The notes beneath the pieces were generated by a model. It did no database searches. It was not told the DNA's origin and worked only from the letters and a program-made list of their open reading frames with translations. Shown here in pieces: positions 22,778 to 33,960 of a stretch of DNA of 34,022 bases. The DNA comes from an uncultured Anaerotruncus sp. (lineage in GTDB: Bacteria; Bacillota; Clostridia; Oscillospirales; Ruminococcaceae): positions 1 through 34,022 of the forward strand of contig CALWZG010000027.1 of NCBI GenBank assembly GCA_944385965.1, in the 5' to 3' direction. Position 1 is the stretch's first letter. Every line of letters begins with the position of its first letter. A program made the position numbers and the translations under genes.

Positions 22778-22867
22778 TTCTTTTTCTAAGGTTTTTTAAA
22801 ATTTTTTTAATATTTGACATAGATTTTTTATAAATTGGCCCTCAACCCATTTTCATCGGCGCAAAAC

Positions 22868-22966
22868 AAAAAGGCACTGACAATTCAGTGCCTTTTGGAC
22901 ACACCGCACAGTTTCGAACCCTGGATACACGTTGAGCGAGACTTGCTCACACACCACGAGTTCTTC
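22868..22966 (-). other. Terminator and tRNA-like remnant at a probable element border
   Basis: AAAAGGCACTGA (22869-22880) pairs with TCAGTGCCTTTT (22885-22896), a strong terminator usable on both strands. On the minus strand it is preceded by a TTCGAA T-loop-like sequence (about 22911-22922), imperfectly paired. A TGAGC/GCTCA hairpin (22932-22950) precedes that in turn. This resembles the 3' end of a tRNA, but there is no CCA and only three of five T-stem pairs form. It lies exactly where the chromosomal oad genes give way to mobile cargo. Confidence 0.4.
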
Positions 22967-23812
22967 TTATCCGTCCACTGGAGACAGTTTGTCACTGGAA
23001 GCCTCCAGAGCTTCGATACGATGATCCTGCGTCAAGATCTCCATCTGGCTGATGGCAATGGCGTTGAGTTTTGCCAGCCGCTCAGTCTGAGGCATTCCTT
23101 CGTTGATGAACACCGCGTTCAGGTTCTCCAGATTGGACAGACAAACCAACTGAGAGACATTGGCGTAGTCACGAATGTTACCCTTCAAATCAGGGTGACA
23201 ATCCCGCCACTGCCTGGCGGTCATACCAAACAGCGCCATATTCAAGACATCGGCTTCGCTGGCGTATACCATGGATACCTGCTGTGCGGAAAGCTCTGGC
23301 GGAATCAGGTTCTCCTTGATGGCATCCGTATGGATACGGTAATTGATCTTGGCCAGGTTTCGCTTGATGTCCCAGCCAAGCTGCTTCATTTCCTCGGTCT
23401 TGAGTCGCTCAAACTCCTTGACGAGATAGAGCTTAAACTCCACGGAGATCCAGGAGGCGAACTCAAATGCAATTTCTTTATGTGCGTAAGTACCTCCGTA
23501 GCGTCCAGCCTTGGAAACGATGCCGATGGCATTAGTCGCATCCACCCATTTTTGTGGCGTCATCACAAAGCTGTTCAGGCCAGCCTGTGTTCTAAACGCA
23601 TCGAATTCGACACGGTTAAAATCAGGGTTATAGAGTGTTTCCCATACGCCAAGGAATTCAATGGTATTTCGATTTCGAAGCCAGTTTTGAATAATATAGC
23701 GAGGATTGTCACTATCCTTGATTTTCGCAATATCAGTCAGACTGAGAAAATCATCCCGTTTGAGATCCCATTGGACATTAATTTCTGTACCTCGAACAAC
23801 TAGCTTATCCAT
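22967..23812 (-). CDS. KilA-N domain protein
   Basis: 281 residues. The N-terminal part (about 1-110: RGTEINVQWDLKRDDFLSLTDIAKIKD...NTIEFLGVWETLYNPDFN...KWVDATNAIGIVSKAGRYGGTYAHKEIAFEFASWISVEFKLYLVKEFERL) is the KilA-N DNA-binding domain found in phages and mobile elements. The C-terminal half is helical and I do not recognise it. GAGGTGTC lies before the ATG. It is the last gene of the block and overlaps the end of a long spurious frame. A regulatory role on the element is likely. Confidence 0.85.
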   Translation of the reverse strand: MDKLVVRGTEINVQWDLKRDDFLSLTDIAKIKDSDNPRYIIQNWLRNRNTIEFLGVWETLYNPDFNRVEFDAFRTQAGLNSFVMTPQKWVDATNAIGIVSKAGRYGGTYAHKEIAFEFASWISVEFKLYLVKEFERLKTEEMKQLGWDIKRNLAKINYRIHTDAIKENLIPPELSAQQVSMVYASEADVLNMALFGMTARQWRDCHPDLKGNIRDYANVSQLVCLSNLENLNAVFINEGMPQTERLAKLNAIAISQMEILTQDHRIEALEASSDKLSPVDG

Positions 23813-24854: not shown

Positions 24855-25286
24855 TCATTCTATCTGCATCTTGCCATGAAAACAGCTGCTTTCCAAGCCG
24901 ACAATATCCCCCATGGGGATCTCAGTCCCGTCCTCCAGCACCAAGGTCCGTTCCAACTCCCTGTGCCTTTTCAGACAGCCCGTAGTGGTGCGGTACATAC
25001 CGCCCTCTTTCCGCTCGTCTGGTTGGAACCATATAACGGTGACTTCCGGCCGCTCCCGGATATGTTCCAGCAGCAGGCCCAGCCTCCGGTCCAGCTCCGC
25101 CCGGTCATCCTCCTCCAACTCCACGCGCCGGTCGGTGAGACGGGCCGTCTCCGCAATGGCGGCGCTGTGTCCGCTAAGTGCGGAGAACGGCGAGAACTGC
25201 GCCGCCCGGTCCGCCATGGGCATCCGGGGATGCTTGGCGGAGGTAGGGTGGGACAGATGGATGATGTCGTCGTATCGTCCGCTCAC
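24855..25286 (-). CDS. YolD-like family protein
   Basis: 143 residues. The start (MSGRYDDIIHLSHPTSAKHPRMPMADRAAQFSPFSALSGHSAAIAETARLTD) and the later VTVIWFQPDERKEGG..IPMGDIVGLE fit the YolD-like family, which is regularly paired with a Y-family polymerase on Firmicutes plasmids and integrative elements. Its start overlaps the polymerase stop by 4 bases, so the two are co-translated. A modulator of the polymerase is the usual guess; not proved. Confidence 0.85.
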   Translation of the reverse strand: MSGRYDDIIHLSHPTSAKHPRMPMADRAAQFSPFSALSGHSAAIAETARLTDRRVELEEDDRAELDRRLGLLLEHIRERPEVTVIWFQPDERKEGGMYRTTTGCLKRHRELERTLVLEDGTEIPMGDIVGLESSCFHGKMQIE

Positions 25287-26800
25287 TCGTGGTGCCCTCC
25301 GATCGTCTGGTTGCGTTCCCTGGCGGTAGCGCCGTCCTCCAAATTCATCCCCTTGAGGACAGCGTTCTTGCCGTACTTTTTCTTGATGCCCAGCATAGTC
25401 TCCTGGATCTTCCGCTTCCTGGCATGGGCGGCCTCGTCCGCCTGTGCCTGCTTTTCTCTGGCGGCGTAGTCGGTGAACAGGTCCAGCTGCTCCGCCTCCT
25501 GTTTCGGGGCCTTGCCCTCCTCCAGCAGACGGTTGGCGCTGATGGACAGCCGTCGGATGAGCAGGGCAGGGTCCACGATGCGGTCGTACAGCCCCGTCAC
25601 CGCCGTCAGCAATTTCTCACCAGAGGAGGTGTAGGACAGGTTTGCGGTGCCGTGGGCATGCTTGGGGATCTTCCGCCCGTAGCGGTCCACCTTTACCTCA
25701 CCACGGAACTGTCGCGCCCTGCCAGGGTCCGTGAGATTCTCAATGTCATAGCCCACTGTCAGGGTCAGCTGGTCGGTGACCAGCCTCTTGTCCACCAGCT
25801 CCAGAGCCAGGGCGTCCGCCATCTCACGAACCACCAGCCTGGCTTTCTGGAAGTCATAGGGGCACTGGAGGACCTGCCCGGAGACGATGCTCTTGTTCTC
25901 CGGCCGGTAGGCTTTCACGTCCTCCATGGTGCAGGGCTCCCAGCCCCAGGCGTGGTCGATGAGCAGCTCGGCGTTGACCCCGAACAGCTTGTAGAGCAGG
26001 TCCTCATTGCGGAAGTCCATGGGCTTGCCGATAGAACACCGTGCGATGTCGCCCATGGTGAAAAGGCCGTTAGCCTCCAGCTTCCTGGCGTAGCCGGGTC
26101 CCACCCGCCAGAAATCGGTGAGGGGGCGGTGGCTCCACAGTTTCTGCCGGTAGCCCATCTCGTCCAGCTCTGCGATGCGGACGCCGTACTCGTCCGCCGG
26201 GACATGCTTGGCCTCGATGTCCATGGCCACCTTGGCCAGATAGAGGTTGGTACCGATGCCCGCCGCCGCTGTGATGCCGGTGGTTTTGAGGATGTCCAGG
26301 ATAATGGTCCGGACCAGCTCCCGGCCGGTCATGTGGTACAGGTCCAGGTAGTTGGTGGCATCCATGAACACCTCGTCGATACTATATGGGAAGATGTCCT
26401 CCGGGGCGATGTATTTGAGATACACCTGATAGATCTTCGTGCTCCAGTCGATATAATGTGCCATGCGGGGCGGGGCCACCAGATAATCCAGCGCCAGCGC
26501 GGGGTTGGTCCGCACCTCCGGGTCTAGCACCGAGGAACCGCTGAGGGTGTGGCCGGGGGCGGCCCACTTTCGACGGGCGTTGACCTCCTTCACCTTCTGG
26601 ACCACCTCGAACAGCCGTGCCCGACCGGAGATTCCGTAGGCTTTCAGAGAGGGTGTCACGGCCAGGCAAATGGTCTTTTCCGTCCGCCGCTGGTCCGCCA
26701 CCACCAGATTGGTGGTCATGGGGTCCAGCCCCCGCTCCACGCATTCCACGGAAGCGTAAAACGATTTCAGGTCGCAACAGATGTAGGTGCGCTCCTTCAT
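25283..26800 (-). CDS. Y-family DNA polymerase (UmuC/DinB-like)
   Basis: 505 residues from MKERTYICCDLKSFYASVE, with GGAGG 10 bases before; the first catalytic Asp is D9 in this numbering. The second acidic pair is in FPYSIDEVFMDATNYL. A HhH-type region (WRVGPGYARKLEANGLFTMGDIARC) and little-finger domain follow. It copies across damaged DNA and raises mutation on damage. Co-transcribed with the YolD-like gene. The size and sequence fit the UvrX/UmuC type carried by mobile DNA. Confidence 0.93.
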   Translation of the reverse strand: MKERTYICCDLKSFYASVECVERGLDPMTTNLVVADQRRTEKTICLAVTPSLKAYGISGRARLFEVVQKVKEVNARRKWAAPGHTLSGSSVLDPEVRTNPALALDYLVAPPRMAHYIDWSTKIYQVYLKYIAPEDIFPYSIDEVFMDATNYLDLYHMTGRELVRTIILDILKTTGITAAAGIGTNLYLAKVAMDIEAKHVPADEYGVRIAELDEMGYRQKLWSHRPLTDFWRVGPGYARKLEANGLFTMGDIARCSIGKPMDFRNEDLLYKLFGVNAELLIDHAWGWEPCTMEDVKAYRPENKSIVSGQVLQCPYDFQKARLVVREMADALALELVDKRLVTDQLTLTVGYDIENLTDPGRARQFRGEVKVDRYGRKIPKHAHGTANLSYTSSGEKLLTAVTGLYDRIVDPALLIRRLSISANRLLEEGKAPKQEAEQLDLFTDYAAREKQAQADEAAHARKRKIQETMLGIKKKYGKNAVLKGMNLEDGATARERNQTIGGHHE

Positions 26801-26850
26801 GGCTTTCTCCCTCCTCTCAGTTTTCATAGTATCTCACAAACACTGTCCCA

Positions 26851-27582
26851 TTATCGGGTCCAGCCCAGGACTCCATCCAGTTCTTCCTGAGCGGCCTCCG
26901 GGAAATTCTTCCGCACCTGCTCATAGATCAGCTCTCTGGATTCGGCGGGAGCAATGGAATAGGCGGAAGAGATATGCTCATATCCCCATAAACTCTCCGG
27001 GGTGGTGTAGACGGAGATGGGCCAGCCATAGGGGAAGCCCTTCTTGTTGATCCGCTGCCGGAAGTCCCGGATCAGCAGATATCCACTCATCTGGAGGTCG
27101 GTGACTGTCCCCTCAAAGTTTTTCTCTCCGCCCCTGCCAAAGCCCGCCTGCTGTTTCAGCGCAAAGGAAAACCACTCGTCCCGCGTGGAGAAGCAGTCCA
27201 TGATCCGCTTCTGGCGGATGGAGGCCCGTTCGTCCTCCCACCGGCTGTCGAAGTCATAGCCGTCCCGCCGCCAGTTGGCGAAATGCGGAAACCACGCCCT
27301 GGAGATGAAGCCCGCCCTGCCGGCGAAGAATTTGCCGTAGGCCACCCTGCCACTCCGGGCGATCAGCTGACGCCACTCCCATGGGTCCCGCTCCTCATTG
27401 CCGGACCACCAATAGAGGTCGGAGGTGTTTTCCTCCACAGAAAAACCATCCGCCTCATTTTTGAACAGCGGCAGAAAACCGACTTCGTCGACCCATCCGA
27501 TGAGCTCTTCCCAATTCTGGATGCATGCGGGGTCTTCCGGGTCCATGCCCCGCATGATCCACTCGCCGTTCTCGATGGCCAT
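26851..27582 (-). CDS. Conserved protein, AlkZ-related type
   Basis: 243 residues with GGGAGG before the ATG. The sequence SGNEERDPWEWRQLIARSGRVAYGKFFAGRAGFISRAWFPHFANWRRDGYDFDSRW, then GEKNFEGTVTDLQMSGYLLIRDFRQRINKKGFPYGWPI, belongs to a conserved Clostridia family that I recall being annotated as AlkZ-related (alkylpurine or crosslink glycosylase superfamily). I am not certain of that link. Placed just upstream of the polymerase pair (50 bases), a DNA-damage role would be consistent. Confidence 0.65.
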   Translation of the reverse strand: MAIENGEWIMRGMDPEDPACIQNWEELIGWVDEVGFLPLFKNEADGFSVEENTSDLYWWSGNEERDPWEWRQLIARSGRVAYGKFFAGRAGFISRAWFPHFANWRRDGYDFDSRWEDERASIRQKRIMDCFSTRDEWFSFALKQQAGFGRGGEKNFEGTVTDLQMSGYLLIRDFRQRINKKGFPYGWPISVYTTPESLWGYEHISSAYSIAPAESRELIYEQVRKNFPEAAQEELDGVLGWTR

Positions 27583-27712: not shown

Positions 27713-28459
27713 TCACAGGATCTGCACGATCTGTTCCCAGAGCAGGATGTGTTTCTGATCGATTGCCCGGTTATCATGGAAGTGTCCGAAGAACCAGGTT
27801 TTATATTCCATCCGCTGGTCCAGCATCTCCAGGAAGTCGCTGAGTGCATCCGCTTCATTGTGGCGGCTCATGGACAGGGCGATTCCGGTGGGCGCGCAAT
27901 GGGTGACTACATAGTCCACTTTCCATGCCGTGCGTTCCAGTGTATCCAGCGCGGTAACATATTCCCCATCGGACGGCAGTTCTTCCGGCCACCAGGAGCG
28001 GCCCAGCACTCGGAAGCGGCACTTGCCGGCATGTTTCAGAGCCGCGTATTGGTCGCAAAAATCCGGCGCTTCTGGGTCCAGAATACCGTCCTCGATGTCG
28101 TGGCTCTTTGCTCCTCCCATGGTAAAGAAAAATCTGCCACCGATCTCATATCGCTGTCCACGCATCAGATGGAGCACATGGGGGCGGACATAGTGGACGC
28201 AGCCGCCGTGCCAGGTATGGACAGGAAAGGTGTTGAGTCTTTCAAAATTCTCATGATTACCATCTGTGAAAAGCGTTGTGAAAGAACGCTCCTCCAGCCA
28301 GTCCAGCCAGTAGGTTTCCTCCGGCGTATCACCCCACACACCTCCGAAATCTCCACATATGATCACATAGTCGTCTCGATCCATTGTTTCCTGTTCTGGA
28401 AAGTACCTGTGACCGAATCGCCGGAAGTTTCCATGACAGTCGCCTGTTATGAATACCAT
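27713..28459 (-). CDS. Calcineurin-like metallophosphoesterase
   Basis: 248 residues with the full set of metal-binding motifs: GDCHG (6-10), GDFGGVWGD (36-44), GNHEN (67-71), a later THCAP and GHFHDN. AGGAGG before the ATG lies inside the end of the recombinase gene, which it overlaps by 13 bases, so it is coupled cargo of the element. Substrate unknown: protein phosphate, nucleotides or RNA ends are possible. Confidence 0.9.
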   Translation of the reverse strand: MVFITGDCHGNFRRFGHRYFPEQETMDRDDYVIICGDFGGVWGDTPEETYWLDWLEERSFTTLFTDGNHENFERLNTFPVHTWHGGCVHYVRPHVLHLMRGQRYEIGGRFFFTMGGAKSHDIEDGILDPEAPDFCDQYAALKHAGKCRFRVLGRSWWPEELPSDGEYVTALDTLERTAWKVDYVVTHCAPTGIALSMSRHNEADALSDFLEMLDQRMEYKTWFFGHFHDNRAIDQKHILLWEQIVQIL

Positions 28460-30096
28460 TTTACCTCTGCCTCCTTAACTGTCTGTTCAATCTCTATCCC
28501 ACCCCGCAGGCAGACACAGATGAGATCCGCAGACAGCACTTTGACCGTGTCTACCAACTGGCGGATTACACTCTCATCCCACTCAGTGATCGCGGCTGTG
28601 TCGGAGTTCAGCAATTCCACCGCGTCCAAGATCCGCTGGCTGGCCCCAGAATCTGCATTCTGCTGTTCCAGAAGGGCACTTCTTTTCTCTTTCAGTGCTG
28701 CCACATCATCTGTGATCCGTTTGAAGTCATCAGCGTACTTCAGATACCCACCCTCCTCCCGTGAGGCGGCGAACAGCGCCCGGAACTCCCGTTCCAGTTC
28801 GTTGATCCGCTGGTCGATATCTGAGAGACACATGGACTCGCCTGGGATGGGCGCCAGTTCCGTCCGCATTGCGGCAGTGATCTGCCCTACCAATGTCTCC
28901 TTCCGGCTCATGGCCGAGTTGATCGCTGCGAGGATTGCCTCCTGCAGCGGCCCCTCATCCAGAGTGGGGGAATCATGGCAGTATCGGGAGCCGTAATCCA
29001 CTCGGCTGGCACACCGCCACACTACCCGTTTCTTGCCACGCTTCGTCCATGCGCACCGACGGTACGCTGTCCCGCACTCGCCGCAGATCAGCCGCCCTGT
29101 GAGGGCGTATTTGGCGCTGTAGCAGGATCGTCCGGTAGGCGCCTTATTCCGGCTGGGGGCTTGTCCGGCATTCCTACGGGCCAGTTCCACCCGCACCGCA
29201 TTGAAAGTATCCCGGCTGACGATCCCCTCATGATGATCCCGCGTCAGATACATGGGGAGCTGGCCGGTGTTGCGGATAGCCTTACGTTCAATGCAGTCAC
29301 TGGTGAAAGTCTTCTGCTGAAGCACATCCCCACAGTATTTCTCATTGCTCAGAATCCCCCGTATGACAGAGATAGACCACGCTGTACCGCCGCTGACATT
29401 GATGGTCCCCTCACGCTCCAGCCATTCCTTGATCATCCGCAGACTTTGGCCGGACAGGAAGGCGTTATAAATCCGGCGGACCACTTCTGCCTGTTCCGGG
29501 ATGATTTTGGGGTTGCCATCCTCGCCCTTTTCATAGGCGTACAGCCGTTCGTAGTGCATGTTGACCTTACCTTCGCGCATGGCCTGCCGCTTACCCCAGC
29601 GGATATTCTGGCTCATAGACTCGCTCTCCGCCTGGGCAAAGGCTCCCATCATGGTGATGATCATCTCACTGTCTGATTCCAGAGTATTGATGTTCTCCTT
29701 TTCGAATACCACCGCAATCCCCAGCTGTCGGAGTGCTCGGATGTAGTTGAGACAGTCCACCGTATTACGGGCGAACCGGGAGATGGACTTTACCAGCACC
29801 AGGTCGATCTTTTTCTGCCTGCACCTCCGGATCATTTTAAGGAACTCAGGCCGTTTCCTTGCCGACGTGCCTGTTATGCCCTCATCCGCGAAGATGCCGG
29901 CCATGGTCCAGTTTGGATTGGTCATGATCTTATCCGTATAGTAGTTTTTCTGCGCCTCGTAGCTGGTAAGCTGTTCTTCATCATCTGTGGACACCCGGCA
30001 GTAAGCCGCGACACGGAGTTGGCGTTGGATGGACTGATCACTGGCCAATTCCGGTTTGGCCGGGATTACGATGACATTCGGAGCCGTGACTGTCAT
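28447..30096 (-). CDS. Large serine recombinase (full length)
   Basis: 549 residues. The resolvase N-domain has YCRVSTDDEEQ with catalytic Ser36 and the arginine pair SISRFARN. The recombinase domain starts near 170. A zinc-ribbon (CGECGTAYRR...WRCASR...C, about 330-375) and a coiled-coil C-terminus follow. Such enzymes integrate and excise elements at short att sites. GGAGGG before the ATG; its start overlaps the stop of the truncated resolvase gene (ATGA). It is the last of four recombinase-family genes in one transcript. Confidence 0.95.
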   Translation of the reverse strand: MTVTAPNVIVIPAKPELASDQSIQRQLRVAAYCRVSTDDEEQLTSYEAQKNYYTDKIMTNPNWTMAGIFADEGITGTSARKRPEFLKMIRRCRQKKIDLVLVKSISRFARNTVDCLNYIRALRQLGIAVVFEKENINTLESDSEMIITMMGAFAQAESESMSQNIRWGKRQAMREGKVNMHYERLYAYEKGEDGNPKIIPEQAEVVRRIYNAFLSGQSLRMIKEWLEREGTINVSGGTAWSISVIRGILSNEKYCGDVLQQKTFTSDCIERKAIRNTGQLPMYLTRDHHEGIVSRDTFNAVRVELARRNAGQAPSRNKAPTGRSCYSAKYALTGRLICGECGTAYRRCAWTKRGKKRVVWRCASRVDYGSRYCHDSPTLDEGPLQEAILAAINSAMSRKETLVGQITAAMRTELAPIPGESMCLSDIDQRINELEREFRALFAASREEGGYLKYADDFKRITDDVAALKEKRSALLEQQNADSGASQRILDAVELLNSDTAAITEWDESVIRQLVDTVKVLSADLICVCLRGGIEIEQTVKEAEVKWYS

Positions 30097-30596
30097 GGGT
30101 ATTCCCTCCCTCTGTGAATGCTCCGCCTGCCGGCAGGCCAGCCGAATGATTTCCCACTCAGGTATCTGGCTTCTGACTCCGCGAGCAATTTCAGCAGTTC
30201 CATAGCGATATCCAGCGCCGGATCCTCTGTACCGAGATTCTCCTTCTCAAAGCGGATCTCGATCCCCTCCTCCCGAAGTTTCCGAACATATCGAAGACAT
30301 TCGGCTGTGTTCCTCGCAAGGCAGGAGATGGAACGTACCAGGACAAGGTCAACTTGCTTTGCCCTGCATTTTCGAAGCAGGTTTCGAAAGTCTGGCCGTC
30401 TGTCAGCCGGAAGGCTTGCGGGACATGTTTCCAAGAATATTCCCGCCATGCTCCACTCCGGTGTGCTCTGAATTAAGGTAGAATAATATTCGCTCAATAT
30501 CTCCAGCCCACCTTGACCATCCGCAATCCTCCCGTATACGGCAACACGCCGCTTATCCGGATTTTTCTGTGGACTTTTCCGCTTTTGTGTCATCAT
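30093..30596 (-). CDS. Resolvase N-domain only, catalytic residues lost
   Basis: 167 residues containing only the serine-recombinase catalytic domain. The fold is well kept (RRVAVYGRIADGQGGLEILSEYYSTLIQ...DRRPDFRNLLRKCRAKQVDLVLVRSISCLARNTAECLRYVRKLREEGIEIRFE). The catalytic Ser position is Ala25 (YGRIA against YCRVS in its neighbours), and the active-site Arg of SISR is Cys92. It ends as the long helix leading to the DNA-binding half would begin. GGAGTGA precedes the ATG, and start and stop are both tightly coupled to neighbours, so it appears to be expressed. A structural or regulatory partner is inferred. Confidence 0.85.
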   Translation of the reverse strand: MMTQKRKSPQKNPDKRRVAVYGRIADGQGGLEILSEYYSTLIQSTPEWSMAGIFLETCPASLPADRRPDFRNLLRKCRAKQVDLVLVRSISCLARNTAECLRYVRKLREEGIEIRFEKENLGTEDPALDIAMELLKLLAESEARYLSGKSFGWPAGRRSIHRGREYP

Positions 30597-30602
30597 TTTT
30601 CT

Positions 30603-31439
30603 TCACTCCTCATGTATCACTTGACCGTTTTTCAATTTTAGGCTGACGCTCCCGTCTGGGTGGATCAGGACTGCACTTGCGATCTGCCGCAGTAACACGG
30701 GAATCTCTGTATCAGCCGTGCTTTGCTCCAGGAGATATCGGATTCGCATGGTTTCGTAGTGCTGCCCACTGAGCACGGCAAACCGGGCCGCGGCAAGGTC
30801 GAACACCATCTGCCGTGCCAGCTTCTCATCAAAGCCGGGGGTATTCAGCAGCTCGCGGAACGCTGTTTCCTGCTCAATGACCGATCCCGCTTCGGCTCTG
30901 TCCAGCTCCGGTTCCTGTACGACACGTCCCGGTGAACGGAGCAACAGTTTAAGCAGGTTTGCCGTTCCCTGTCCCAGCCGCCGGTCAGTTGCCTTTGTGG
31001 AGATACCCTTACAGCAAGGACAGTACCATCGCTCTTTCCCATGTTGGTTTGGGTCCCGGCATACTATGGCCCCGCAGACTCCGCATACGGCAAGCGTTTG
31101 AATGGCTTCTGCGTTTTCACTCTTTTTTCGAACTGGCGCTCTGCTTGGAACAGTCCCGCGTGCTTCACGATACAGTTCCGGCGCAATCACCTGTGGGAAC
31201 TTTTCGGTCCCCATGTACCGTTTATCCGCCAGGATTCTGGCTACCATATTCTTGTTCCAGGGCTTTCCGGACAGGTAGGGGATGGGCTTCGCCTGCAGCT
31301 CCCGCGTCAGCCTCTCATACGAATCGCCGGCGATGTACTGCCGGTAGATCCAGCGGACCGTATCCGCCTCAGCTGCGCAGATCACGATAGCTCCGGATCT
31401 CATTTCGTAGCCAAAGGGCAGTTTTCTGTTCGCTGCCAT
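30603..31439 (-). CDS. Serine recombinase lacking the catalytic domain
   Basis: 278 residues from MAANRKLPFGYEMRSG. The ATG at 31439 sits 8-10 bases after AAAGGGAGAG; a GTG at 31445 is the alternative. It begins right where the recombinase DNA-binding domain starts in full-length relatives (KLPFGYEM...YERLTRELQAKPIPYLSGKPWNKNMVARILADKRYMGTEKFP). It then has a zinc ribbon (CGVCGAIVCRD...WYCPCC) and a helical tail. No catalytic domain is encoded upstream, as the previous gene is complete. It could bind DNA in a recombination complex but cannot cut. Confidence 0.85.
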   Translation of the reverse strand: MAANRKLPFGYEMRSGAIVICAAEADTVRWIYRQYIAGDSYERLTRELQAKPIPYLSGKPWNKNMVARILADKRYMGTEKFPQVIAPELYREARGTVPSRAPVRKKSENAEAIQTLAVCGVCGAIVCRDPNQHGKERWYCPCCKGISTKATDRRLGQGTANLLKLLLRSPGRVVQEPELDRAEAGSVIEQETAFRELLNTPGFDEKLARQMVFDLAAARFAVLSGQHYETMRIRYLLEQSTADTEIPVLLRQIASAVLIHPDGSVSLKLKNGQVIHEE

Positions 31440-31441
31440 GG

Positions 31442-33037
31442 TCACTCTCTCCCTTTCAGCGGCTCCGTCAGGCGGAGGCCGTTCTTTAGGTAGAATTGCA
31501 GCATTCCGCTGTATTCCACCGTGATTTTCTCTATTAGGTCGCTGAATATCTCACCATCGAACGCAGGCAGGAAGTCCGGCATGGAGTCCAGTTCCTCCAG
31601 CAACGCCCTGGTCTGGGCCGGGATTTTGTCATCTCGCGCACCGATCAGGCGTTCTTTCTCCCGTTTGGCCGCCTGGAGGCGGCTGGCAAGCTCGTTCCCC
31701 TGGGATATAAAAATATCAGGATCAACAAGGCCCGCCTGGTGCATGGAGGCAAGCATCCGATCCTGATCGTTTAAGTCCGATATTAGTTTGTTCAGCTCAA
31801 CCACATCTTCGTTCCAGAGCATCCGATGATCCCGAATCGCCTGGAGGTCAGAAAGCATCTGCGTCAGAATGCCTGTTTCCTGTGCTTTGAGCTTATGATA
31901 TAGCCGCAGAAAAGCGGCTTGGAGCTGTTCTTCCGGCACCTGCGTTACCGGGCAGAAGTCAGTTCCTTTTCGGTCATGTCCCATGCACGCCCAGTATACA
32001 ATGCCGTTTATCGTTTTCCTGCGAAATACCGTACCACATACACCGCAGGATATCTTCCTACGGAAAGGATAGGGGATGTTTTGGACCGGGGATAATAGTT
32101 CCCGGCGCATGGTCATCAATTTTTGTGCCGCTTCGAAGTCTTCCATGGACACAATGGGTTCATGGGTGTTCTCTGCGTAATAGGACTCCCGCTGTCCCTT
32201 ATTTCGAGGGTGCTTGTAGGGGAGAGTGTCTGTTGTGTAATATTTTTGCCACACTGAATTCCCAGTGTATTTTTCATTGGTCAGAATATAGCGGACTGCG
32301 GCGGCGTTCCAATTCACCCCGCCATACCGGCAGGGGATGCGCTCCCGCGTCAGCCGCACGGCGATGTCCTTTGAGCTCTGCCCTGCCAGGTAACTGGCGA
32401 AGATTCTGCGGATTACCACTGCTTGCTCTGGGTCGATTTTGATTTGGCCCGCTTCCCGTTTATAGCCGTATGGCAGGGTTGTCGGCACATAGGTGCCGCT
32501 CTCCATACGGCGTTTATAGCTCCAGCGCATATTGCCAGAGATGCTTTCGCTCTCTTTCTGTGCGATACCGGCGAACACCGCGGTCAGCAGTTCACCGCTC
32601 ATATTGGAGGTGTCGATATTCTGCTCCTCGAAGCAGACGCCCACGCCAATGGCTTTCAGTTCACGAATTGTTTTCAGGCAGTCGGTGGTGTTGCGTGCAA
32701 AGCGGGAGATGGATTTCACCAGGATCTTATCCACCAGCCCCTTTCGGCAATCCGCAAGCAGACGCTGGAGGTCGGGGCGCTTCTCCGCTGATGTGCCTGT
32801 GATGCCCTCATCAGCGTAAAGATCCACCAGTGTCCATGTGTCCCTGGTCCCGACCAGAGTCGTGTAGTAGTTGAGCTGGGCCATGAAGGAGTTGAGCTGA
32901 TCGCTGGAGTCGGTGCTGACACGGCAGTATGCGGCTACCCGCAGTTTTTGAGTCTCTGGCCGCTCTGACGCTTCGATCACAATGATTTGTTTCCTTTCCA
33001 GCGCAAGGTTCCCACTGACATTGCTCTTCTCTGCCAT
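31442..33037 (-). CDS. Large serine recombinase (full length), first of four
   Basis: 531 residues from MAEKSNVSGN, with AGGAGGTGAG before this ATG. It has the N-domain YCRVSTDSSDQ (Ser41) and SISRFARNTTDCL. Next is the recombinase domain (PYGYKREAGQIKIDPEQAVVIRRIFASYLAGQSSKDIAVRLTRERIP, written here only to show the linker to the DNA-binding fold). A zinc ribbon (CGVCGTVFRRKTINGIVYWACMGH...C) and coiled coil follow. It leads the recombinase transcript, with the 52-residue gene 114 bases upstream. Likely the main integrase of the block together with the 549-residue enzyme. Confidence 0.95.
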   Translation of the reverse strand: MAEKSNVSGNLALERKQIIVIEASERPETQKLRVAAYCRVSTDSSDQLNSFMAQLNYYTTLVGTRDTWTLVDLYADEGITGTSAEKRPDLQRLLADCRKGLVDKILVKSISRFARNTTDCLKTIRELKAIGVGVCFEEQNIDTSNMSGELLTAVFAGIAQKESESISGNMRWSYKRRMESGTYVPTTLPYGYKREAGQIKIDPEQAVVIRRIFASYLAGQSSKDIAVRLTRERIPCRYGGVNWNAAAVRYILTNEKYTGNSVWQKYYTTDTLPYKHPRNKGQRESYYAENTHEPIVSMEDFEAAQKLMTMRRELLSPVQNIPYPFRRKISCGVCGTVFRRKTINGIVYWACMGHDRKGTDFCPVTQVPEEQLQAAFLRLYHKLKAQETGILTQMLSDLQAIRDHRMLWNEDVVELNKLISDLNDQDRMLASMHQAGLVDPDIFISQGNELASRLQAAKREKERLIGARDDKIPAQTRALLEELDSMPDFLPAFDGEIFSDLIEKITVEYSGMLQFYLKNGLRLTEPLKGRE

Positions 33038-33150
33038 ATCGCTCACCTCCTGCCACACACAATACCATAACTATGTATTATTTTCTATTAAATAATGGGT
33101 GAAACTCCAACAAAAATTGCGATCCATTTTGCATTAGAAAGCACACCTTG

Positions 33151-33339: not shown

Positions 33340-33960
33340 TAAAACCGCTGTTATAGAACACGGGGACCGCTCCAGACATTCCTCACTGGCAGCACAAAGC
33401 AGATATCAAAATCCCAATTACTCCAACATGAAGAATGGACCGTACAGAGCGGCCCCCGTTTGTTTTATTCCTTACTGGCTCTATTCGACACTACTCCCCG
33501 AGCCCTGGGCGGCTGAACTAACCTGCGGCTGGCGCCGCTCTCCGGGAATCGCACCCCTCCGAGGATCTCTCCGAGTCGCCCCCATTGCTTGCGTCTGTGG
33601 CTGGGCGAAGAGTACAGGCTGGTGGCATCATCGCAAAAGAGCTTGCCACAGCTCCTTTTGGATAGGCGGGAACCGCTCACTGCCTTGTTTGGCCGTCTTT
33701 GATGTGGGATCTTCCCACACAGGCAGGTCTTCGCGCACCTTCCGCATCGCTGCTCCCTCTCGTCAAGGGTCCACCAGCCGACGTTATTAGTCGCCGGATG
33801 TTAAATTTTCAAAGAGCACGAGGGACTTGCGGCCCTCTACTCTATTACCACAACCTCCAACACCCAAAACGGCACTTATTTTTTCAAAAAATCCAAAATA
33901 AACCTGAATTATTCACGACTTTGCCACGAATGTGGCTGAAAGCCACATAGTTACTGTATT
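33340..33960 (-). ncRNA. Hairpin-rich region, candidate leader or noncoding RNA
   Basis: No clear gene covers these 620 bases, yet they are full of short perfect stems. These are GCGGC/GCCGC (33525-33538), TGTGGGA/TCCCACA (33703-33719), GAGGG/CCCTC (33820-33837) and ATGTGGCT/AGCCACAT (33930-33948). On the minus strand GCTCTTTGAAAATTTAACA (near 33800-33816) resembles rRNA leader or spacer sequence. The GC content falls sharply past 33840. I do not recognise an Rfam family. The tiny frame at 33628-33747 may instead be a leader peptide. Strand is inferred from the genes downstream. Confidence 0.3.
33628..33747 (-). CDS. Possible 39-residue peptide
   Basis: ATG at 33747 with GAGGGAG 6 bases before. 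It reads MRKVREDLPVWEDPTSKTAK and then QGSERFPPIQKELWQALLR. Its stop overlaps (ATGA) the start of another 37-residue frame ending at 33518. It could be a leader peptide within the structured region, or a chance frame. Confidence 0.25.
   Translation of the reverse strand: MRKVREDLPVWEDPTSKTAKQGSERFPPIQKELWQALLR

Follow-up and report, generated by a model that had tools for sequence, protein, structure and literature searches.

Catalysis-free and nucleophile-less serine-recombinase genes between two full enzymes in an uncultured Anaerotruncus: a candidate heteromeric integrase

A minus-strand operon of four serine-recombinase genes

We analysed 34,022 nucleotides (nt) of DNA from an uncultured Anaerotruncus sp. 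(GCA_944385965.1, contig CALWZG010000027.1, forward strand 1 to 34,022; this whole stretch is hereafter the window), whose minus strand carries four serine-recombinase genes in the order F1 (full enzyme), DB (DNA-binding half), CD (catalytic domain) and F2 (full enzyme). The four genes are most likely the integration module of a mobile element.

31442..33058, minus strand: F1, a full large serine recombinase, 531 amino acids (aa) from the ATG; start GTG 33058 or ATG 33037; catalytic Ser41
30603..31445, minus strand: DB, a recombinase without catalytic domain; start GTG 31445 or ATG 31439; recombinase domain, zinc ribbon and helical, coiled-coil-like tail
30093..30596, minus strand: CD, a catalytic domain alone; nucleophilic Ser replaced by Ala25, SISR changed to SISC at Cys92
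28447..30096, minus strand: F2, a full large serine recombinase of 549 aa; catalytic Ser36; the most conserved member among relatives

Domain matches and coordinates bear out a preliminary description of this DNA, which had listed four minus-strand recombinase genes with Ser41, Ala25, Cys92 and Ser36. F1 and F2 each combine PF00239, including the catalytic Ser, with PF07508 and a zinc ribbon (their Pfam content being PF00239, PF07508 and PF13408), and thus qualify as large serine recombinases. By the same test DB does not, since it matches PF07508 alone and lacks the catalytic domain PF00239; CD matches PF00239 alone and, its nucleophilic Ser missing, does not count as an active serine recombinase. 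F1 and DB overlap by 4 nt if DB starts at its GTG, or are separated by 2 nt if it starts at its ATG; DB and CD are 6 nt apart, and CD and F2 share an ATGA overlap. None of the four genes matched in a scan of a defence library.

For comparison we used a scan of named genomes with a DB motif pattern, which gave 172 relatives; the best 80 were kept, and the resulting 80 loci are hence selected on DB. The identical four-gene order, which the preliminary description had suggested seeking elsewhere, is present in L035 (Oscillibacter sp. 1-3, with a truncated F2), L036 (Colidextribacter sp. OB.20) and L101 (with a very divergent CD of 160 aa), so that the arrangement goes beyond chance.

A widespread triplet with DB in the middle

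A protein search with DB returned 1152 matches, and among the best 120 of these nearly all relatives are ~270-295 aa long. Within the same family, 36/297 genomes (the window's own included) contain a DB match at E 1e-20 or better, and F1, DB and F2 lie side by side in 27 of 29 loci from same-family relatives, some genes being cut by locus ends; no CD was seen in these 29 loci. Complete F1-DB-F2 triplets number 48 among the 80 named loci under strict spacing and 51 under looser spacing. A DB profile matched 26/245 genomes of the class and 14/299 of the phylum, with the own genome counted both times, some of the matches being ordinary full recombinases (frames of ~440-540 aa) and a few being fragments. 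Standalone DB genes beside full recombinases occur in 18 further families. Viral collections searched with DB held no relative.

On the recombinase domain, in a tree of 113 rows thinned from the loci, DB forms one clade (support 100/97), as does F2, while F1 forms one clade on the catalytic domain; the recombinase domains of F1 and the catalytic domains of F2 form no single clade in these trees. Purifying selection on the partial genes, a check that the preliminary description had put forward, is apparent for DB: over 40 related pairs (not independent, and taken from 84 candidates, most of the others having been left out because dS was extreme for at least one gene) the median ratio of nonsynonymous to synonymous substitution rates (dN/dS) was 0.196 for DB, with a maximum of 0.335, 0.182 for F1 and 0.071 for F2. 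DB distances also track those of F1 and F2 (0.865 and 0.873). The predicted fold of DB (pLDDT 87.9, pTM 0.52) and its profile, at E 0.001, match large serine integrases exclusively (SPbeta, A118, Bxb1), with 13 chains by fold and 4 sequences by profile. These comparisons indicate that DB is an old, conserved, standalone subunit and the middle gene of an F1-DB-F2 triplet.

Two variants of the gene were observed. In a subgroup of ~250 aa (L024, L028, L034) the zinc ribbon is lost and both ends of the protein are kept, and at L155 (1486-3939) a single 817-aa open frame fuses F1- and DB-type parts.

CD belongs to a family that has lost its nucleophile

Searching with the window CD gave seven proteins, just two of which are close over the full length (P0001 at 99% and P0002 at 81%). 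A search with five CDs gave 6526 matches, and the best 120 of these were aligned with the CDs of the window, L035, L036 and L101, P0001 being nearly the same as the window's own CD. In the nucleophile column of these 124 rows there are 100 Ala, 15 Val, four Thr, four Asp and one Ser; the Ser is thus gone in 123/124, and the lone exception (P0165) is an ordinary recombinase fragment. The two active-site arginines, in contrast, are largely retained (the SISR Arg in 118 rows and the second Arg in 121), and the Ser is kept in 180/180 full recombinases scored. Of the two substitutions singled out in the preliminary description, therefore, loss of the Ser is common to the CD family, whereas Cys92 is local. 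The window CD has also lost part of one loop.

Its model fits serine-recombinase catalytic-domain structures, and CD retains the first portion of the long helix. CD frames are intact at 62% identity and make up more than 100 clusters, and a branch of 180-aa CDs has a conserved basic tail, which is missing from the window CD, P0002 and the L101 CD. Between L035 and L036, which represent two genera, CD has dN 0.27, dS 1.01 and dN/dS 0.27 (95% 0.17-0.43), compared with 0.20 for F1 and 0.23 for DB. As the preliminary description had supposed of both partial genes, CD and DB appear kept for use: they are intact and conserved in relatives rather than decaying.

Among the 80 loci CD is present in three (L035, L036 and L101), a few contigs stopping inside or just after DB. 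In viral collections, examined ORF by ORF in one of two locus sets, no short catalytic-domain open reading frame (ORF) without the Ser was found. A tree of 157 catalytic domains, containing 24 CDs of which 19 were picked from the list, unites the CDs (98/96) and attaches them to five F2 sequences, the window's among them (95/86); the L101 CD sits on a long branch and its placement is unsure. Since CD joins F2 catalytic domains, it was most simply derived once from F2, as a later addition to the triplet.

These trees bear on how the two partial genes arose. The preliminary description had called the recombinase 'split', but DB and CD are of separate origin, and a single frameshifted gene is ruled out because DB stands before CD and each has its own start and its own relatives. 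Its further proposal of two tandem copies, each having lost the opposite part, is likewise ruled out by the recombinase-domain and catalytic-domain trees, in which DB is one old clade found in mostly CD-less triplets and CD groups with the catalytic domains of F2.

The recognition block of F1 differs between near-identical triplets

Seven triplets are near-identical in F2 (97-100%) and DB (92-98%) and carry three F1 types, namely L056/L063/L069, L057/L065 and L059/L074. Overall identity in the 16 between-type F1 pairs is 73-76%, unevenly spread: in blocks of 60 residues, identity between types is 92-100% for the three blocks at the start and the two at the end, and 32-78% for the four inner blocks. 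The differing segment covers approximately residues 181-420, that is, the recombinase domain (RD) and zinc domain (ZD). At the DNA level ~575-650 bp within F1 cannot be aligned, with 94-98% identity on both flanks. The pattern reads as block exchange of the F1 recombinase and zinc domains. As the swappable recognition module lies in the full enzyme F1, the pattern points to F1, and not to DB or CD, for target choice, which the preliminary description had suggested that the dead pieces might set.

Element ends and insertion site

Comparison of near-identical elements placed the right end of the element at GGCATCTATAGTGTTGCGATGTTCCA, after which the DNA is unrelated. The corresponding features of the window are as follows.

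22896..22924, minus strand: right end of the element, with the half-site CCAGGGTTCGAAACTGTGCGGTGTGTCCA, ending in CCA at 22898-22896
22864..22895, minus strand: host hairpin resembling an intrinsic terminator, directly abutting the element end
22967..23812, minus strand: KilA-N-domain gene, the element's last gene before the right end

A 21-base end motif, with at most 4 substitutions allowed, has a single occurrence per locus in 12 loci, 3' of F2. In 10/12 of these loci and in the window it is followed within 0-6 nt by a terminator-like hairpin, compared with 747/121,586 sampled background positions; of the two uncounted loci, L081 lacks a hairpin, whereas inspection by eye shows a bulged one in L074. 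The elements of L038, L041, L037, L039 and L046, from other groups, end at a terminator, as does L283, one of two additional same-genome copies. A looser motif, TC[TG]A[AT]A[CG]TG, derived partly from loci on which it was scored, was followed by a terminator in 22/34 cases (19/60 loci) when downstream on the same strand, and in 0/7, 1/6 and 0/2 cases in the other three region and strand sets.

Left ends were seen in two genomes, G1196 and G1200, where the element (51.7 kb and 10.4 kb, respectively) starts directly after the 3' CCA of tRNA-Leu(CAA). The reverse complement of the first left-end bases is GGCATCTATACCGTTTCGCTATTA, so that left and right ends are inverted repeats of each other. Both elements have CCA at both ends, which may correspond to the direct repeats of 2-8 bp of streptococcal triplets, and lie between the tRNA-Leu 3' CCA and the terminator. 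Given the position of the left end after the tRNA CCA and the inverted-repeat ends, crossover would most simply take place at the CCA, between tRNA and terminator. Targeting of intrinsic terminators per se was rejected, since the left ends make the terminator most simply that of a tRNA gene.

Other genomes gave partial views of such sites. G1197 has a site resembling a left end directly after a CCA, ~5.9 kb from tRNA-Leu(CAA), which we read as tandem accretion, and in G1198 a tRNA-Ala(CGC) lies 77 kb off, with a terminator like that at the right end, the left end not being seen; in the DNA fetched for G1199 and G1201 no tRNA gene was found. In the window's own genome many of the 34 listed tRNA genes end in CCA with a terminator-like hairpin at once after, and the CCA/terminator end of the window element at ~22,896 adjoins host genes, the OAD beta-subunit region matching 8/10 other genomes of the genus. 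A search of the L039 flanks in its genus gave no clean boundary.

Two side observations concern these ends. Short tandem units of ~100-160 bp, each with an end half-site and a terminator, lie beside the right end at L044 (14177-14400), L065 (13206-13400) and L039 (13739-13864), and resemble arrayed cassettes, either captured or minimal. At the G000:C7 end (L408, 19908-20000) the contig stops 16 nt past the CCA of tRNA-Arg(CCT), which as the left junction of the window element is possible but unproven.

A possible heteromeric integrase and its alternatives

We lean slightly towards viewing the four products, from their sequences, as one heteromeric serine integrase in which two subunits that cut, F1 and F2, work with two that do not, DB and CD. 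F1 would read the target, on the tRNA side, and F2 the constant palindromic element ends. DB would bind a half-site in the manner of a recombinase C-terminal half, and its helical tail would permit or block synapsis, replacing a separate directionality factor; in A118 integrase the coiled coils have been modelled as such synapsis gates (PMC3783163). CD would pair with the catalytic domain of F2 and keep one position in the complex from cutting. A fuller reading, which we put forward tentatively and with more doubt than belief, is that of a modular integrase in which F1 reads the target and exchange of its recognition block takes the element from one tRNA gene to another, F2 serves the palindromic ends, and dedicated pseudo-enzymes, namely DB and in one lineage also CD, stand in for the directionality factor and determine at which half-site cutting occurs.

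Several observations weigh against the heteromeric integrase. The F1 swap was seen in one near-identical group, and the loci that tie it to tRNA identity are very few. CD is so rare among the loci that the core system works without it, and as dS is saturated between the window CD and those of L035 or L036, its own dN/dS is not measurable. In the DB model the domains are confident and, as the pTM indicates, their arrangement is not. No terminator follows the right ends of L081, L040 and L282. For the window element, the 1.29 of 2.34 Mb of its genome looked at yielded no left end, and searches within the genus, using DNA that flanks the elements of the window, L069 and L054, yielded no empty site. 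Finally, the relaxase and TraG families PF03432 and PF12696 are unmatched in the window's draft genome, so that the element may either lack mobility or depend on others to mobilise it; a conjugative plasmid carries a related triplet close to mobC and to a relaxase gene.

An alternative is that DB and CD are regulators outside the recombining complex, DB as a dominant-negative competitor or repressor on attachment (att) sites or an operator and CD drawing F2 off into dead dimers, so that recombination would be lowered by each. The two halves have kept folds which, in full enzymes, bind DNA or pair, and the account of split enzymes in PMC6868429 describes phiC31 halves that do not complement non-covalently and a split TnpX with some DNA binding and no recombination. 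We nonetheless judge this unlikely, since the presence of DB in the great majority of triplet loci and the tracking of its distances with those of F1 and F2 go beyond what a dispensable brake would be expected to give, an argument weakened by the fact that the triplet loci were found through DB and any DB-less triplets would be missed. DB and CD could instead assemble in trans into one whole non-cutting third integrase subunit, being complementary halves encoded by neighbours. This is improbable: CD stands beside DB at so few loci, neither protein contains the later portion of the connecting helix, and in the same account split phiC31 integrase needed covalent joining (PMC6868429), which makes such reassembly less likely.

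That CD is an independent DNA-bending or minor-groove factor with no tie to F2, its conserved basic tail doing the work, is suggested by the 180-aa branch and made very improbable by the tailless CDs of the window, P0002 and L101 and by conservation lying mostly in the catalytic fold. To the idea that the partial genes are leftovers heading to decay we give hardly any credence. Losses in the window CD (its Ser, an Arg and a piece of one loop), the rarity of CD, and the truncated F2 of L035 and F1 of L054 would suit it, but it is largely refuted by the intact CD frames, dN/dS well under 1, the conserved tail, the number of CD clusters and the conservation of DB across many families. The heteromeric integrase matters, if true, because serine integrases have been studied mostly as single proteins needing a separate direction factor: how direction is set would become directly testable through conserved non-cutting subunits, and how target specificity shifts without breaking the enzyme through natural block swaps.

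Relation to known systems

As in the staphylococcal cassette genes ccrA/ccrB, two full serine recombinases are encoded together here. The best matches include NCBIfam Ccr models, yet these fall far under the CcrA/B/C cut-offs (at best 122 bits against 900, for CcrB), and we know of no catalysis-free partners of ccrA/ccrB. The serine-integrase triplets of streptococcal integrative and conjugative elements (Ambroset et al. 2016, PMC4701971) consist of three adjacent same-strand genes that cluster by position in the triplet, as we found here, and sometimes have coding sequences between triplet and target, likewise as here. They also have very short direct repeats, to which the CCA at both ends in G1196 and G1200 may correspond. 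All 42 integrases counted there are said to have a PF00239 Resolvase domain with the Ser, whereas our middle gene has no Resolvase domain and a dead fourth gene is added; this difference takes the streptococcal members as described. Their reported targets are the protein genes mutT, hsdM and traG (PMC4701971), in contrast to the tRNA 3' end in two relatives here.

The role proposed for DB, acting through zinc domain and coiled coil so that synapsis is either permitted or prevented, is that of the directionality factors phiC31 gp3 and Bxb1 gp47 (PMC3783163; see also PMC5814800); these are unlike each other and unlike recombinases, whereas DB is a recombinase C-terminal half. The gin element similarly carries three serine recombinase genes on one non-phage element, but girC lies apart from girAB and, according to PMC5595907, rearrangement needed just GirC and GirX. 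On an Enterococcus faecium plasmid (NZ_CP065778; L171, 4076-6557) recombinase-annotated genes of 165, 138 and 522 aa form an operon that likewise has a short gene ahead of a full enzyme, its PF07508 match being weak (19.9 bits against a cut-off of 21.1); the operon differs in that this gene is much shorter and there is a single full enzyme. F1 matches in Anaerococcus, Corynebacterium and Enterococcus plasmids were set aside as different from this triplet.

A search of the open-access literature, subscription journals not being covered, found no account of catalysis-free triplet members, a fourth gene, a recognition-block swap or the CCA site. As far as these searches reach, therefore, serine-integrase triplets are known, and catalysis-free members, the swap and the CCA site are undescribed.

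Neighbouring genes and a leader RNA

The remaining features lie on either side of the four genes.

27713..28459, minus strand: metallophosphoesterase gene, overlapping the 3' end of F2
33456..33740, minus strand: conserved leader region 5' of F1, with covarying RNA structure in relatives and a pemK-RNA-like core at 33608-33544

A homologue of the metallophosphoesterase gene is present in 25/80 triplet loci, mostly just 3' of F2. Cargo at 24855-27582 of the window comprises a Y-family polymerase, a 143-aa partner ORF and an AlkZ-related gene, relatives of which occur in eight, seven and one of the 80 loci, respectively.

The leader region was found by blastn in 45 of the 80 loci. Nine loci were submitted to Rfam and every one attains the gathering score for pemK RNA (RF02913), with the window copy below it (29.9 vs 34.8 bits), and RNAalifold on 26 leader sequences gave 41 pairs, 30 of them changed on both sides. 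Folded singly, the window leader is no better than shuffles (z -1.19; 14/100 as good), and the structure is supported by the alignment alone. It may be that pemK RNA is a leader of integrase modules. Covarying RNA structure ~400-1000 nt 5' of F1 in L036, L039, L040, L044, L050, L066, L078, L082 and L101 exceeds the Rfam pemK model.

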